From a virus, in IMG/VR virus record IMGVR_UViG_3300035162_000138, positions 1-32,746 of that record: a stretch of DNA of 32,746 nt. The stretch is one strand, 5' to 3'. This document shows, one piece after another, positions 4,537-29,766 of the stretch. Below the pieces are notes generated by a model. The model was given only the letters and a program-made list of their open reading frames with translations, made no database searches and was not told where the DNA came from. The position numbers and the translations under genes are program-made. Every line of letters starts with the position of its first letter. The stretch's first letter is position 1.

Positions 4537-6053
4537 TATTCAAATCCCCCAAATGTCCCGTCTCCATTATCAATGTCTGGATTCCATGTCTTGACATTTG
4601 GGCTAGACGTCGTGGCTGATCCGGCTGAGTATGAATTAAGAAGGGATTGAACTTGAGACGGTATAGCTTTGTTTGCCTCTAGTTGGCTTAAAGCTTCATT
4701 GGCTTGGTTAAAGTTAAGGTCATTATTTTGATATTGTCGCACTATTTGCGCTCTTTGCATGTCAAATTCAGCTTTTGCAATCATTACTGAAGTTATGGCC
4801 ATGTTAGCTTCTGGAGTATTTTTAAGACTACCAAGCGAGTTTATCATGCCAGCATATTCAATATCAGATGTGGAGCCAGACCCTTCGGCCCGAAGCGTAG
4901 GCCCAACGCGCTTAACAATAGACTGCCTAAGAGCTGCAACATCACTAAATTCTGGAAACGCTTCCGCGAACCGACCTGTGAGCGCCCCGCTGGGGGCTTG
5001 CTCGGCCAATTGCCGCAGAATATCTAAGTCCCGCCGCGCGCTTGAAGCGTTAGCCCCAGCCGTCAAGAAACCAGCAAACTGTTCACCGGTCTTGCCGTAC
5101 AATTTCTTTTTCAGCTCATCCTCTGGGTTTGCGGGCATATCCCCAACCTTGGAAAGAACCTCGGCCTCCGCTTCAGTTTTCCCTAATCCTTTCCAGTATT
5201 CATAACTTCTAATTTGCGAAGGTCTTGTGTCTTTGGCTGGGCTTAACCGGTTGCTAACAATAGCGCTCATTATATTAGACGCGGCACTTGGATTTGCCTT
5301 TAATATAGCTGCGACTTCTCCATAACCGTTTTCCTCTAACCATTTGGCCGTCTTGTTTACATTCCCCGCAGAAACCCGCTGCGCACCACGTTGCTGGATG
5401 GCTTCACCACCGCGAAACTCTTGCATTATTAGCGGGTCAAGTGCTGCCGCAAATTGTTCAAACCCTGTCATTCCAGTTTGCGGGTCAACGGCCATTGCTT
5501 TGTCTTTTAGCGAGGAAAGCAAACCACCAAGGCCACCTTGCTGTGGTGAGGTTTGTTGGCCGTTTATAGCCGGTGGGGTGATGTTTTCAAGCCTCAGAGC
5601 CATATTGTTCGCCTCTCCGTTTGTTGTAAGTAATCCGCTTTTGGGGTTGGCAGACCCGAAAACGTGGTCGCCTATCTTTTTCCAATCGCCACCAGCTTTT
5701 TGGCCCCAATTAGGTTGTGATATAGCTGGGTTGTAAAAGTGGGTTGCCCCGCCAGTAACATCTTCATACCCTCCAGCGATAAGGTCATCTGCCGCCCTGT
5801 ATGCGTCATCGCTGGCCCGCATTTTGGTCATGTCTTGACCCTGCTCCCCGCCCGCATAACCCGTTAAGCTATTCCAAGACGAAAACTGACCGGGCTTTAA
5901 TATCACGCCGCGCAAACCGTTGCCGTAGCCAGACGTATTCGCGCGGTTCATGATGACAGAGCCAGCGGCCATCATGCCGTCAAGACCTTGGTTGCCAGCC
6001 TCGGCCTGAAGCGTGAGCGCCAGTAGTTCCCGGTCGTTATCACTAACATCCAT
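4536..6053 (-). CDS. Ejection-type virion protein with N-terminal SleB-like peptidoglycan hydrolase domain
   Basis: A 505-residue protein. Residues about 8-135 match the cell-wall hydrolase SleB family (Hydrolase_2): a Glu at residue 18 in LTLQAEAGNQG is the expected catalytic acid, followed by VIMNR, a GQFSSWN segment, GATHFYNP near residue 102 and a closing IGDHVF. The remaining 370 residues are helical, Ala/Glu/Gln-rich and of unknown fold, including probable coiled coil near 310-470. The domain order suggests a virion-carried enzyme that cuts peptidoglycan locally so the ejection channel can pass; the family role is known, the use here is inference. TAATG overlaps join it to both neighbours. 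It is distinct from the GH19 endolysin at 29143-29766. Confidence 0.8.
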   Translation of the reverse strand: MDVSDNDRELLALTLQAEAGNQGLDGMMAAGSVIMNRANTSGYGNGLRGVILKPGQFSSWNSLTGYAGGEQGQDMTKMRASDDAYRAADDLIAGGYEDVTGGATHFYNPAISQPNWGQKAGGDWKKIGDHVFGSANPKSGLLTTNGEANNMALRLENITPPAINGQQTSPQQGGLGGLLSSLKDKAMAVDPQTGMTGFEQFAAALDPLIMQEFRGGEAIQQRGAQRVSAGNVNKTAKWLEENGYGEVAAILKANPSAASNIMSAIVSNRLSPAKDTRPSQIRSYEYWKGLGKTEAEAEVLSKVGDMPANPEDELKKKLYGKTGEQFAGFLTAGANASSARRDLDILRQLAEQAPSGALTGRFAEAFPEFSDVAALRQSIVKRVGPTLRAEGSGSTSDIEYAGMINSLGSLKNTPEANMAITSVMIAKAEFDMQRAQIVRQYQNNDLNFNQANEALSQLEANKAIPSQVQSLLNSYSAGSATTSSPNVKTWNPDIDNGDGTFGGFE

Positions 6054-7885
6054 TACTTATACCCTAAAGCCTTACGCTTAGCGTCCATAAATGGCCGAAT
6101 AACAACTTTAAGCGCTGGGACTTTCGCCACAACCGCCGCCATTTTTTCGCCATATTTGCTGTAAGCTTTGTAGAACCAATTTGGTGAGTAGCCGATAACC
6201 CACTCGCGGAACTGAAGCCATTTTGGATTGTCTTCGCCGTAAACCTCACGGGCAACCCAGCAAATCGGAAGGAGCGGAAGGATTTTAGCGCCGGTCTGCA
6301 AGTAACTAAGCAAGCCGGGATTTTGCGATTGAGTTGTGGTTTGCGGTCCTTGAGATTTCCCAAGAGCAGCCAATGGCGCAGAAAGTGACTGCATTGGCGC
6401 GCCTGTGTAGCCGCCATATTGCTGCTTTGCAGCGTCAATCAATTGCTGCTGCATAGCTTGCTGCAACAGACCTTGCTGCATTTGGTTCTGCTGAATAGTT
6501 TGGCCAGTGTTAAACGCTTGCTGACCAAGACCGCCAAGCTGACTTGCCGCGCCAAGACGCTGTTGATTTGCTTGCAAGCCAGCAGACTGATTTGCCAGCG
6601 ACATCTGGTTTGAAGCACCAGCGCCAAATTGAGCAGCTTGATTTTGTGCTGCCATGTTTGCGGCTGCTGCTTGATTTGCTGCTGCTGAGCCAAACTGACC
6701 CGCTGTATTTTGGGCTGCTGCGCCAAACTGACCCGCTGTGTTTTGAGCGCCTGCGCCAAATTGCGATGCTTGGTTAGCTGCGGCTGCATTAGCCAAAGAT
6801 GCTTGGTTAGCGGCTGCTGCCGCAAATTGAGCAGCCTGCTGTTGCTGAGCTGACTGCTGAGCTTGAGCTTGGTTAAACGCTGCTGCGCCAAATTGACTGG
6901 CTTGGTTTAATGCTGATTGGTTGGCAAGGCTTGATTGCTGGCCAAACTGACCAGTTGTTGTATCGGCCTGCAAGTTGGCTTGTTGATTTGCCAAAGCAGC
7001 TTGCTGCGCTGTACCAATGTCTTGCTGTGCCATTTGCTGAGCTTGAGTAAATCCGGCCTGACGCAATCCAGATGCAGCTCTTGCTGATTGCTCTGCAAAC
7101 GCACGTTGGGTTTCAGAGTCGGCAATAGCCTGACGTGAGCCGCCAAAGGCGTTGGCTGCTGTGGCTTGCGCGCCTTGCTGGTTTAGCGTCATATCCCTGT
7201 TGCGAGCTAAGTCAGATAGTGTTTGCTGCACAACTTGGTTTTCGTATGGGTTGGTATAAGCGCCTAAATCTCTTCCAGCAAGTTGACCCGCTTGTACTGA
7301 TTGGGCTGAAATGACTGGCGCTGGTCCAACCTGAGACGCATCATAGCCGCGATTTGCAACATCAGCAGCGGTAAACCCTTGGCTTCCAGCTCTTTCTGCG
7401 TCGTAACCCTGCGCGTCGTAACCCTGCGCATTATAGCCCTGCGAGTTCATGCTGCTCGGCCTGTATCCAGCCGCTCTGGCTCGTCCAGGCTGAAAGCCCA
7501 TGCCAGCTTGAGCGCCTTGCATGGCTTGCTGTAAAGCGCCAGCAGATGCCTGATTCACGTTGAATTGACCCTGTGGGGCCAGTGGCGCGTATTGTGGTTG
7601 CTGCGGTCGCCTCGGCAGCATTGCAGTAGACTGCGGCAACACAGCGGGTTGAGCTGGCATCACGCCTCGACCATTTTCGCCGGGCATAAACGGCGGCATC
7701 ACAGCGGGTTGTGGTTGCTGACCGCCTTGGCCACCTTTTCCGCCCATCGAACCCATTAATCCACCATTGCCGCCCTGCATCGGGTCGGGAAAGGTATTAG
7801 GCGTTCCTACTTGTGGATTATACGGCGTTGCGCCTGACCCTGAAAATAATGAGCCAATACCGGGCGTTCCTGTTCCACCAGACAT
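6053..7885 (-). CDS. Ala/Gln-rich ejection protein with a Cys-led C-terminal domain
   Basis: A 610-residue protein in three parts. Residues 1-130 are Gly/Pro/Gln-rich and probably disordered. Residues about 150-175 contain repeated QGYDA units. Residues about 205-300 hold the segment common to phage internal proteins (NPYENQVVQQTLSDLARNRD and an AFGGSRQAIADSE motif). Residues about 300-480 are imperfect Ala/Gln/Asn/Phe-Gly repeats such as NTAGQFG and NQASQFG. The last 69 residues form a separate domain starting with Cys 542 (CWVAREVYG), rich in Trp and Tyr, ending in a basic helix. It lies between two other virion proteins with TAATG or near-TAATG junctions. I read it as an internal or ejection protein. 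Confidence 0.72.
   Translation of the reverse strand: MSGGTGTPGIGSLFSGSGATPYNPQVGTPNTFPDPMQGGNGGLMGSMGGKGGQGGQQPQPAVMPPFMPGENGRGVMPAQPAVLPQSTAMLPRRPQQPQYAPLAPQGQFNVNQASAGALQQAMQGAQAGMGFQPGRARAAGYRPSSMNSQGYNAQGYDAQGYDAERAGSQGFTAADVANRGYDASQVGPAPVISAQSVQAGQLAGRDLGAYTNPYENQVVQQTLSDLARNRDMTLNQQGAQATAANAFGGSRQAIADSETQRAFAEQSARAASGLRQAGFTQAQQMAQQDIGTAQQAALANQQANLQADTTTGQFGQQSSLANQSALNQASQFGAAAFNQAQAQQSAQQQQAAQFAAAAANQASLANAAAANQASQFGAGAQNTAGQFGAAAQNTAGQFGSAAANQAAAANMAAQNQAAQFGAGASNQMSLANQSAGLQANQQRLGAASQLGGLGQQAFNTGQTIQQNQMQQGLLQQAMQQQLIDAAKQQYGGYTGAPMQSLSAPLAALGKSQGPQTTTQSQNPGLLSYLQTGAKILPLLPICWVAREVYGEDNPKWLQFREWVIGYSPNWFYKAYSKYGEKMAAVVAKVPALKVVIRPFMDAKRKALGYK
6400..7150 (-). repeat. Low-complexity coding repeats (Ala/Gln/Asn/Gly)
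   Basis: Inside the 610-residue virion gene the DNA is made of imperfect repeats of GCTGCTG and GCCAAACTGACC type units, giving NTAGQFG, NQASQFG and NQAS peptide repeats. The composition leaves long open frames in other phases on both strands; these are shadows of the repeats. Slippage here could change repeat number between relatives. Confidence 0.75.
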
Positions 7886-27599: not shown

Positions 27600-28360
27600 G
27601 CAAGACATCAGACGCCACAATAGATCATCTTATCAAGTGCGCTGAGATGAATATGTGTCAAGGCGAAATTGCAGATTTGCTGCACATTTCCAATTCAACG
27701 GTCCACCGCATCGCAAAGAAATTAGGTATAACTTTAGCCAGAAAGGTCAGGCATGGAAAAAATAATGAAGTATATCCAGAGGCTCGAGAGGGTGAACCTG
27801 ATAATGCTGAACGAGCCGAACACATTGAAGAGGCCAAATTTGCAGCAGAGGCTACAGGAGCAGAGCGCGCTGCTCGAGAGGCTGAAATCCGCTTTAAGCG
27901 ATCTCCCGAAGGCAGACTAAAGGTAAGTCTTCAGGGCGTCACCGACAAGCACTTGCGCTACGAGATAACTTACGGACATTGCTTGCTGGAATTTGAGCGG
28001 CTGCAATATAAGCTGAAAAATCGTGGGCCATTGCCGTCAAGGGAGCCACGGCAAAGCACCATGCACAAGGGCGCGCTTGAGATAGCTCAGAAGCGCAAGG
28101 CTTATGGCATAGCGCAAGGTAAGCGACTTTTTGATATGTTGGGTTATGACCAGCGCGTTACCGTATCAGACGCCGCTGCTATGCTTGGGGATAGTGTACC
28201 TCGCACGGCCAGTTATCTGAAGAAATTGGTTTTAGCTGAGAAGATACACCGGGTGCGTGATTTAGTTGTCATTGAAGGCCAGCCCAAGAAGCAATGGCGG
28301 TGGGTGTTTAGCAAGAGCGACATTGAGCCGTTTCACTCTGGGTTTGAGGATGAGAAATGA
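27596..28360 (+). CDS. Two-HTH DNA-binding protein (early regulator or replication initiator)
   Basis: A 254-residue protein. Residues about 8-48 form a homeodomain-like HTH (DHLIKCAEMNMCQGEIADLL, then HISNSTVHRIAKKLGI). A charged, Ala/Glu/Arg-rich linker (about 55-110) follows. Residues about 165-245 look like a winged helix (KRLFDMLGYDQRVTVSDAAA, SVPRTASYLKKLVLAEKI, WRWVFSKSD). It overlaps the zinc-ribbon gene and the next gene by ATGA. It may control the early genes or initiate replication; both fit the position. A second open frame lies inside the linker (27753-27920). Confidence 0.72.
   Translation: MSKTSDATIDHLIKCAEMNMCQGEIADLLHISNSTVHRIAKKLGITLARKVRHGKNNEVYPEAREGEPDNAERAEHIEEAKFAAEATGAERAAREAEIRFKRSPEGRLKVSLQGVTDKHLRYEITYGHCLLEFERLQYKLKNRGPLPSREPRQSTMHKGALEIAQKRKAYGIAQGKRLFDMLGYDQRVTVSDAAAMLGDSVPRTASYLKKLVLAEKIHRVRDLVVIEGQPKKQWRWVFSKSDIEPFHSGFEDEK
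27753..27920 (+). CDS. Possible nested overlapping gene (coiled-coil peptide, 55 residues)
   Basis: Inside the HTH gene, in the +1 frame, an ATG at 27753 has AAAGG six bases upstream and opens a 55-residue frame. It reads as a Leu/Gln/Glu-rich helix (KYIQRLERVNLIMLNE, then LQQRLQEQSALLERLKSAL) ending LPKAD. It covers just the low-complexity linker of the host gene, where constraint on the main frame is weak. The match could be an accident, because Ala/Arg/Glu codons read out of phase often give Leu/Gln/Glu. Confidence 0.3.
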   Translation: MEKIMKYIQRLERVNLIMLNEPNTLKRPNLQQRLQEQSALLERLKSALSDLPKAD

Positions 28361-28575
28361 CTTATTGGGCAGCTCTAATCCTGACCTACACCGTGACATC
28401 TGGCGTGACCTCTTATGAGGCCACGTCGACGGTGTACTTCAAGGACATGCAAGCCTGTTCTGCGGCCAATGATGTGATTTATCCCATCATCTTGGCACAA
28501 TCCAGAGACAGCATAGCGAAATGCAAGCGCACTGAACTACCATCGGATAGTATAAGGCCAGTGGCGAGGAAGTAA
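28357..28575 (+). CDS. Small exported or membrane-anchored hypothetical protein
   Basis: A 72-residue protein ATGA-coupled to the HTH gene. The N-terminus (MTYWAALILTYTVTSGV) is short and hydrophobic, a possible signal or anchor; the rest has two Cys (34 and 56) that could pair outside the cytoplasm, with the DMQACSAANDVIYPIILA helix between. The family is unknown to me. It closes the plus-strand block. Confidence 0.6.
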   Translation: MTYWAALILTYTVTSGVTSYEATSTVYFKDMQACSAANDVIYPIILAQSRDSIAKCKRTELPSDSIRPVARK

Positions 28576-28577
28576 TC

Positions 28578-28727
28578 GTGTGGGTGGCCGTTGATGTGCA
28601 AGTCGTTTGGCGCAGTCTGGTAGCAACGTAACCAATCAAAACAACCGCCATTCCCGTGGCTAAGCGTATTTTTATTAGATAAAACCACCCACACACACTT
28701 CTAGCAAATGCCAGCCCATGCTACCAG
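28578..28727. repeat. Interleaved inverted repeats (pseudoknot topology)
   Basis: GTGTGGGTGG (28578-28587) is the exact reverse complement of CCACCCACAC (28685-28694), and CTGGTAGCA (28617-28625) is that of TGCTACCAG (28719-28727). The order is A, B, A', B', which is a pseudoknot topology in RNA. A shorter TGGCG/CGCCA pair lies inside. The segment lies between two convergent genes, starting three bases after the plus-strand stop and ending seven bases before the minus-strand stop, and has no supportable gene. Confidence 0.65.
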
Positions 28728-28733
28728 CGGAAA

Positions 28734-29108
28734 TCAATCAAACGAAGATAAAACTTTGTGCATGGTGTCTTGGTCAAACAGATCAGCGGCCAAGTGCGTT
28801 GTGCTTGGCCTGATTATCGAGTCATCTCCCCGGCAAAAGAAAATCTTATCTAGGTCAAGCGCCACAAACGCATAAACGTCAGACCGCCGGCGGGCGACTC
28901 CCTGCTTTGTATGAAACGGGTATCTTATATATTTGCGCTTTGATGACGTTTTGACTTGCAAGGTTAAGATGCGTGTATCCATCTGTATATACCCATCGTG
29001 GTCCTGCGAAGGAGCAAGGGTGCAGAAATAACCAGCGAGGCTCAGTCGGCTGAGGGCGAGGTATTCCCCCGCCCGTCCGACATTCGCGCTTGCTGCTTGA
29101 TCCTGCAA
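28734..29108 (-). CDS. PD-(D/E)XK nuclease-like protein (PDDEXK_5 / homing type)
   Basis: A 124-residue protein. It has GRAGEYLALSRLSLAGYF (Glu 15), then QDHDGYI (Asp 38) and LQVKTSS (Gln 51, Lys 53), the E-D-QxK pattern of the small PD-(D/E)XK nucleases related to intron-encoded and tRNA-splicing-type enzymes. The first in-frame start is a TTG at 29108, with no clear ribosome-binding site; a stop lies two codons upstream, so the start must be near. It is separated from the lysin gene only by the 9-bp palindrome array. Possibly a free-standing homing endonuclease. Confidence 0.68.
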   Translation of the reverse strand: MQDQAASANVGRAGEYLALSRLSLAGYFCTLAPSQDHDGYIQMDTRILTLQVKTSSKRKYIRYPFHTKQGVARRRSDVYAFVALDLDKIFFCRGDDSIIRPSTTHLAADLFDQDTMHKVLSSFD

Positions 29109-29110
29109 GG

Positions 29111-29151
29111 TTAGCTAACCTAGCTTAGCTAACTTAGCTAACTTAGCTAAG
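29111..29151. repeat. Four copies of a palindromic 9-bp unit
   Basis: TTAGCTAAC occurs at 29111-29119, 29125-29133 and 29134-29142, and TTAGCTAAG at 29143-29151; TTAGCTAA is its own reverse complement. The last three are in exact tandem. The final copy overlaps the endolysin stop codon and its last two codons. It could be an iteron array, a nuclease target or slippage product. Confidence 0.85.
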
Positions 29152-29766
29152 CCAGCCGTGGATTTCATTTGTCTGCTCAATTCGGTCGGCCAAACCGTGA
29201 TGGCCTCCGTTCACACGCTTCGTAATACTTTTGATCGTACTGTCATTGACGCCCTTGTCGGCAATATCAAACAGATTATTCTTGTTAAAAAACCACAGCG
29301 CCGTTTCCATTGCGTATGTGCTGGCAACTAGGTCCGGATCGGTCATAACTTCAGGTATGCCCATTTCTGATGCAAAGCTGCGATAATTTGATTTGCCGGT
29401 GAGCTGTAAAAATCCGCGACCACAATATAGCCTACCGTCGCAAGATGCCTCATCGCCATTTCCCATACGGTTTGCGTAGACCTTGTTGGCTAGACCAGAC
29501 GGGTTGCGCGAGTATGGCATGGCACTTTGAACCGTAGGGAAGCGCGAAGGCCACACAGCCATTATCCGTTCTGGGGTGCTGTAGTGCAGCCCCTCACGGG
29601 TTCGCTTGAAGCCGCCGCTCTCATGGTGCGCTTGACCCATTAGATGCGCGCCACGCTCCGGCGACAGATTGAAGTGCTTGGCAATGGCTCTGGCCGTATT
29701 CGGCCCAAACGCTCCATCAGCACCGACGCCGATTTTGGTTTGCAGGTTTTTCATAGCTTCGTTCAT
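29143..29766 (-). CDS. Endolysin, glycoside hydrolase family 19
   Basis: A 207-residue enzyme that cuts the glycan chains of peptidoglycan at the end of infection. Residues about 8-30 (LQTKIGVGADGAFGPNTARA) look like half a peptidoglycan-binding domain. The GH19 core has AHHESGGF (Glu 49) and TREGLHYS (Glu 58), the expected catalytic pair, then ANRMGNGD, CGRGFLQLTGKSNYR and TALWFFN. No signal peptide is present, so it needs the holin. The ATG overlaps the stop of the small Lys-rich gene as ATGA, and its stop codon lies within the palindrome array. Confidence 0.9.
   Translation of the reverse strand: MNEAMKNLQTKIGVGADGAFGPNTARAIAKHFNLSPERGAHLMGQAHHESGGFKRTREGLHYSTPERIMAVWPSRFPTVQSAMPYSRNPSGLANKVYANRMGNGDEASCDGRLYCGRGFLQLTGKSNYRSFASEMGIPEVMTDPDLVASTYAMETALWFFNKNNLFDIADKGVNDSTIKSITKRVNGGHHGLADRIEQTNEIHGWLS

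Follow-up and report, generated by a model that had tools for sequence, protein, structure and literature searches.

A predicted structured small RNA gene exchanged among environmental phages

The minus strand of a 32,746-base phage sequence, an IMG/VR record with PHROG-recognised portal and terminase genes (hereafter the window), very likely carries a small RNA (sRNA) gene at positions 28576-28692. Comparison with related viral sequences also gives us good confidence in the fuller explanation of a phage sRNA of ~117 nt that would be transcribed from a promoter at G28692, fold into a three-way junction and be encoded by a single-copy gene exchanged between phages. The gene reads 5'-GUGGGUGG ... 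CCACCCAC-ACGA-3' with +1 at 28692, and the element extends from TCGTGTGGGTGG through CCACCCAC. It is 117 nt long in the window and 112-132 nt among family members, and its conservation ends at 28576. The flanking genes are convergent, as the initial annotation correctly described: on the left is a 72-aa ORF on the plus strand (28357-28575), whose stop codon abuts the sRNA 3' end, and on the right is a 124-aa ORF on the minus strand (28734-29108), which lies upstream of the sRNA promoter and adjoins a GH19 endolysin gene (29143-29766). Tandem TTAGCTAAC-type repeats occupy 29110-29152, between the 124-aa and endolysin genes, and a coding repeat with a 33-nt period is found at 6606-6915, inside a 610-aa minus-strand ORF (6053-7885). 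The window's TerL protein shares 61% identity with its counterpart in an environmental phage and 56% with the TerL of Sinorhizobium phage phiM5.

The element belongs to a family with two types of members, which differ in the form of helix P2; the window is type 1. A covariance model (R1) built from 28 type 2 members, with the window left out, matches the window element with 83.5 bits (E 1.8e-20), and the R1-confirmed family comprises 110 viral contigs, the window included. An exact core pattern finds 36 viral contigs and a 5' motif pattern finds 80, two of which (L158 and L183) were judged by eye to be false and left out of every set. A third pattern, independent of helix P1, finds 58 contigs, and R1 confirmed 30 of the 34 new ones; it did not confirm the remaining four (L223, L231, L240 and L251), where the sequence is unrelated. 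Two truncated members, L173 and L193, were left out of the structure and promoter sets. The P1-independent pattern brought in members with an altered P1, namely GCGGGTGG with CCACCCGC, GTGAGTGG with CCACTCAC and GTGGGTGGT with ACCACCCAC.

Across these members, the predicted RNA is a three-way junction, closed by helix P1 and with P2+P4 and P3 as its two arms. P1 is 8-9 bp long and pairs GUGGGUGG (28685-28692) with CCACCCAC (28580-28587), and relatives show compensatory UA>CG, GC>AU and CG>UA changes between its strands. P2 pairs UAUCUAAU (the type 1 form, 28674-28681) with AUUGGUUA (28629-28636) around one internal U.U mismatch, and its outermost pairs, the first and the last, covary in relatives. 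P4, the apical hairpin of the P2 arm, joins GCCA (28657-28660) to UGGC (28647-28650) across the loop CGGGAA, which is CGGGA(A) in most members; two-sided changes occur in three of its four pairs in type 2 and in one of four in type 1. P3 pairs CGUUG (28624-28628) with CAACG (28589-28593), is capped in most members by a conserved GCGCCAA and shows a compensatory UA>CG change in one type 1 subgroup. Compensatory changes are thus found in P1, P3 and P4 when family members are compared, and some P2/P4 pairs are broken in several members. Conservation stops after the 3' tail ACGA (28576-28579), which is GCGA in some members.

At least 93.7% of cells are paired in each of three alignments, and in each of them covariation, a shuffle-based measure inflated by the relatedness of the sequences, exceeds that of all shuffles (0/500) and of slid controls. 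Alignment A6 (type 2, 44 distinct sequences) has 97.9% of cells paired and a covariation of 0.162 against 0.104 shuffled, with at most 0.047 in a slid control. The corresponding values in A7 (type 1, 21 sequences) are 96.2% and 0.067 against 0.041, with at most 0.044 when slid, and in A3 (49 sequences of both types) covariation is 0.154 against 0.067. For one member, L171, unconstrained minimum free energy (MFE) folding returns exactly the model structure (z -3.3). The MFE fold of the window alone differs from the model (z -0.46), and the fold proposed for the window therefore rests on comparison.

A plus-strand reading is suggested by the position of the element right after stop codons. It survives as a very unlikely rival, in which the element would belong to the left (early) gene, either within its plus-strand 3' UTR or as a bidirectional terminator. 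In most contigs the left plus-strand stop does precede the element by 0-7 nt; in 81 of the 110, a plus-strand gene ends at most 30 nt to the left and a minus-strand gene at most 45 nt to the right; and contig L163, which has a relative of the left gene of L151, shows a classic intrinsic terminator after it in place of the element. Plus-strand folding, too, is better than that of shuffled sequence. The wobble pairs, however, fit the minus strand only. Read on that strand, the A6 pairs include 95 G.U cells and no A.C cell; since one helix had been chosen on the minus strand, we recounted without it and obtained 34 against 0, and P1 alone gives 9 against 0. In A7 the counts are 28 against 1, with 21 of them coming from one constant U.G pair. 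Alignment A1 folds no less strongly on the minus strand (z -4.5) than on the plus strand (z -3.4). The promoter described below is likewise on the minus strand only, and together these three lines of evidence argue for the minus-strand reading and overturn a plus-strand 3'-UTR RNA. Gene arrangement also speaks against the plus strand: 11 contigs have a left plus-strand gene and no right minus-strand stop within 45 nt, and six have no left plus-strand gene and a minus-strand terminator right after the element. The contigs other than the 81 comprise 12 without a left gene, 11 without a right minus-strand gene, four with the element at a contig edge and two with neither gene.

On the minus strand, a sigma70-like promoter is predicted upstream of GTGGGTGG, with TTG, 16-18 nt of spacing, a TATAAG-like box and about 6 nt to a G at +1. 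It is seen over 13 unrelated flank clusters that represent 106 contigs (four of the 110 were unused, two being truncated and two having short flanks). With hand-entered weight matrices, the promoter scores of the clusters add up to 67.8, compared with 8.2 (sd 11.3) in shuffled flanks (0/1000), and the sum drops when the start is slid; the same outcome was obtained with 15 flank clusters before the new members were added. The -35 T, T and G are each present in 10 of the 13 clusters, as are the -12 T and the A residues at -9 and -8. The plus strand gives no promoter signal (97/1000 shuffles). Eight of the 13 clusters score at least 4, and the window's own promoter is the weakest, at 2.5 (TAGAAG, CTGGTA). 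Its -10 box TAGAAG (28698-28703) lies 5 nt before +1 and is a weak example of what is TATAAG, TATAAA or TATAAT in most other contexts. The -35 box would be TGGTAG (28721-28726) at 17-nt spacing or, alternatively, CTGGTA (28722-28727) at 18-nt spacing, and a strict consensus promoter scan of the window found none near the element. We further note that relatives with the same 124-aa gene seem to keep a local hairpin in this promoter region (28702-28724 in the window), with stems GCCGCC/GGCGGC, CCAUUG/CGAUGG and UAGCA/UGCUA identified by eye; it is perhaps an operator or a coincidence.

The initial annotation also suggested a terminator structure, which the sequence around the element does not support. 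No GC hairpin with a trailing T run occurs in 28400-28900 of the window, and across the family only 8 of 61 downstream contexts have an intrinsic terminator within 160 nt. Six contigs have a strong one on the minus strand, starting at the RNA 3' end. Because such terminators are rare, we infer that the 3' end would generally be made by processing or by trimming back to P1.

The space that holds the gene is modular. Between the 72-aa and 124-aa genes, close relatives of the window have the element, a different one or, in one case, neither. Across the family, the left genes include HTH-type proteins, and the right genes encode several different endolysins or the 124/127-aa protein. Relatives without the sRNA gene (L010, L009, L023, L025-L028, L032, L033, L019 and L043) carry in the same intergenic place another conserved element of ~85 nt with a AAGTAATA-N6-TATTACTT dyad, and L007, L021 and L022 have the sRNA gene and the ~85-nt element in tandem, with the same gene-end repeat after each.

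Comparison of whole records indicates that the sRNA gene is an accessory gene, carried in single copy, which phages without recognisably related structural genes exchange. Of 20 records, 18 have just one copy and the other two, the close relatives G016 and G019, lack the gene, so it is dispensable. A homologue of the window's TerL is found in 6 of the 20 records and a portal homologue in 8, although some records are fragments, in which a missing match is not proof of absence. No protein cluster is common to all ten element-bearing records compared; the best clusters occur in eight of the ten and also in a record without the element. Three carriers (G001, G002 and G005) have 31-34 clusters in common with one another and only 4-5 with the window. 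The few TerL and portal homologues, the lack of a universal cluster and the low sharing with the window suggest that the gene moves between phage lineages.

Another rival is a DNA element that is mobile or serves recombination, similar to a MITE, an attC site or a linker, in which P1 would be the terminal inverted repeats; left and right neighbours are indeed found in mixed combinations. Contig L138 has a second, decayed sRNA gene (5762-5873, minus strand, 22 bits) in tandem with the intact one. In L007 (2958-3340) and L006 (compare L163), a ~125-aa ORF is inserted beside the sRNA gene with a duplicated sRNA-gene end beyond it, an apparent gain of a gene through recombination at the element. 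Several copies per genome would be expected of a MITE-like element, however, and each of the 18 positive records has one. Two patterns run against a genome set of 84,980 species yielded no confirmed member (no loci with the first; 24 with the second, none confirmed by R1). Moreover, strand-specific wobbles and a positioned promoter would go unexplained in a DNA element, and we regard this alternative as highly improbable. Searches elsewhere were also negative: R1 had no match in the five nearest annotated phage records or in 190 genomes from the class to which G021 belongs, where an empty answer is uninformative, and DNA searches gave chance matches only in a phage collection and one chance match in plasmids.

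A short minus-strand coding gene is less credible still. An ORF with a GTG start is open in the window at 28479-28694, but single-base insertions and deletions occur throughout the members, and compensatory pairing explains the substitutions.

The region was initially annotated for two interleaved perfect inverted repeats within 28578-28727, and both are present in the window in the order A-B-A'-B'. Repeat A is 10 bp long (arms 28578-28587 and 28685-28694, GTGTGGGTGG) and repeat B is 9 bp long (arms 28617-28625 and 28719-28727, CTGGTAGCA). Among 1000 dinucleotide shuffles of these 150 nt, three have an inverted repeat of at least 10 bp, 37 have one of at least 9 bp, and none combines one of at least 10 bp with another of at least 9 bp. 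Such repeats are commoner in real phage sequence than the shuffles imply, since, among 435 tiles of 150 nt, 16 contain one of at least 9 bp and 13 contain one of at least 10 bp. The inner 8 bp of repeat A (28580-28587 and 28685-28692) are P1 of the ~117-nt element, a conserved 8-9-bp helix with compensatory changes in relatives. Repeat B is, by the same comparison, judged a coincidence. Its left arm has a full 9-nt complement to the right of the element in only one of the 106 testable contigs (four of the 110 were not testable), namely the window; six keep 6 nt, and 99 have no complement of at least 6 nt. The right arm B' lies outside the element, overlapping the -35 region of the predicted promoter upstream of the start, and would thus be absent from the RNA. 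The pseudoknot that the initial annotation proposed from these repeats can therefore be dismissed, close relatives keeping one repeat only, which was its own stated ground for refutation. Its suggestion of a new small structured RNA is supported, with the opposite strand and with different boundaries and fold.

That annotation further pointed to a stretch resembling a tRNA D arm. The stretch, GCAGTCTGGTAGC, is present at 28612-28624, in type 1 members only, and the RNA itself is its complement. No anticodon or T arm follows, as had been observed: ARAGORN, whose model requires acceptor, anticodon and T arms, finds no tRNA or tmRNA gene in the window. In type 1, UGCUACCAGACUGCGCCA is complementary to a tRNA D arm, and the matching plus-strand 16-mer equals positions 9-24 of a tRNA-Pro gene in one of five genomes examined. 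Type 2 members lack the middle of the stretch and keep only GGCGC and GGTAGC, and the complementarity is therefore only a lead to a possible target.

These observations suggest how the preferred minus-strand sRNA would work. The gene, which usually lies where an early regulator-type gene meets a late or lysis gene, has a sigma70-type promoter positioned for transcription from G28692. The RNA would fold with its ends paired by P1, leaving the 4-nt ACGA tail and the P2+P4 and P3 arms, and would probably be stable. It may act in trans on a host component, such as an RNA-binding protein, an mRNA or a tRNA, for which we judge the balance about even: no single phage protein goes along with the gene, and its promoter belongs to the sigma70 type of the host. 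A dedicated promoter, occurrence in single copy, spread over phages with different structural genes and the lack of a constant phage partner all suggest an RNA that acts in trans and uses or blocks a host factor. Action on phage transcripts, in cis or antisense, is rather doubtful; in convergent contigs the RNA could work in cis, as an antisense to the mRNA 3' end of the left gene, which is not possible in the six contigs with a terminator. Another structural role is unlikely. The conserved unpaired GCGCCAA, CUACC and GGGA are candidate contact sites.

Two marks of an sRNA gene are present, namely a promoter at a fixed distance (in 13 contexts, weak in the window) and a structure with compensatory changes, and the element is very likely a phage sRNA, whose family is new to the extent of these searches. 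At the gathering cut-off, Rfam 15 has no match to the window or to six member loci, and at E up to 10 it gives only eukaryotic matches of chance level. A search of the literature by titles and abstract openings, with most subscription papers and all preprints outside its scope, did not find the element. The phi29 prohead RNA, which binds the prohead portal and the packaging ATPase, has a ~120-nt domain with paired ends, a three-way junction and its own promoter. Our sRNA resembles it in length (~120 nt), paired ends, junction and predicted promoter; unlike it, the sRNA has no Rfam family match and no protein common to the ten carriers compared, and its carriers have unlike terminases and portals. 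The T4 stable RNAs are structured, of unknown role and located within a tRNA cluster; the sRNA is likewise a structured phage RNA, whereas this window has no tRNA gene. Phage and prophage sRNAs such as IpeX, AgvB, Esr41 and abiF RNA, with functions largely unknown according to a review (PMC12197685), are similar in being small phage-borne RNAs that probably act on host or phage transcripts. Those named there come from studied (pro)phages or cyanophages; the present sRNA differs from them in its lack of an Rfam 15 match, its closed three-way junction and its occurrence as a single copy common to phages with different structural genes.

Annotation of viral metagenomes that is based on ORFs misses phage RNA genes, and for this one a covariance model and a predicted start site are in hand. 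The gene marks a site at which early and late modules are exchanged. Given the unlike structural genes and the lack of a fixed protein, the sRNA may offer a handle on a host function common to these environmental phages. As a speculative and rather unlikely extension, it would represent a new class of structured phage RNA, a single-copy module passed between unrelated phages that share a host group, by which they capture or inactivate one and the same host factor. In type 1 this could be through its complement to the tRNA-Pro D arm; if this is true, the type 1 RNA would be a phage anti-tRNA RNA.
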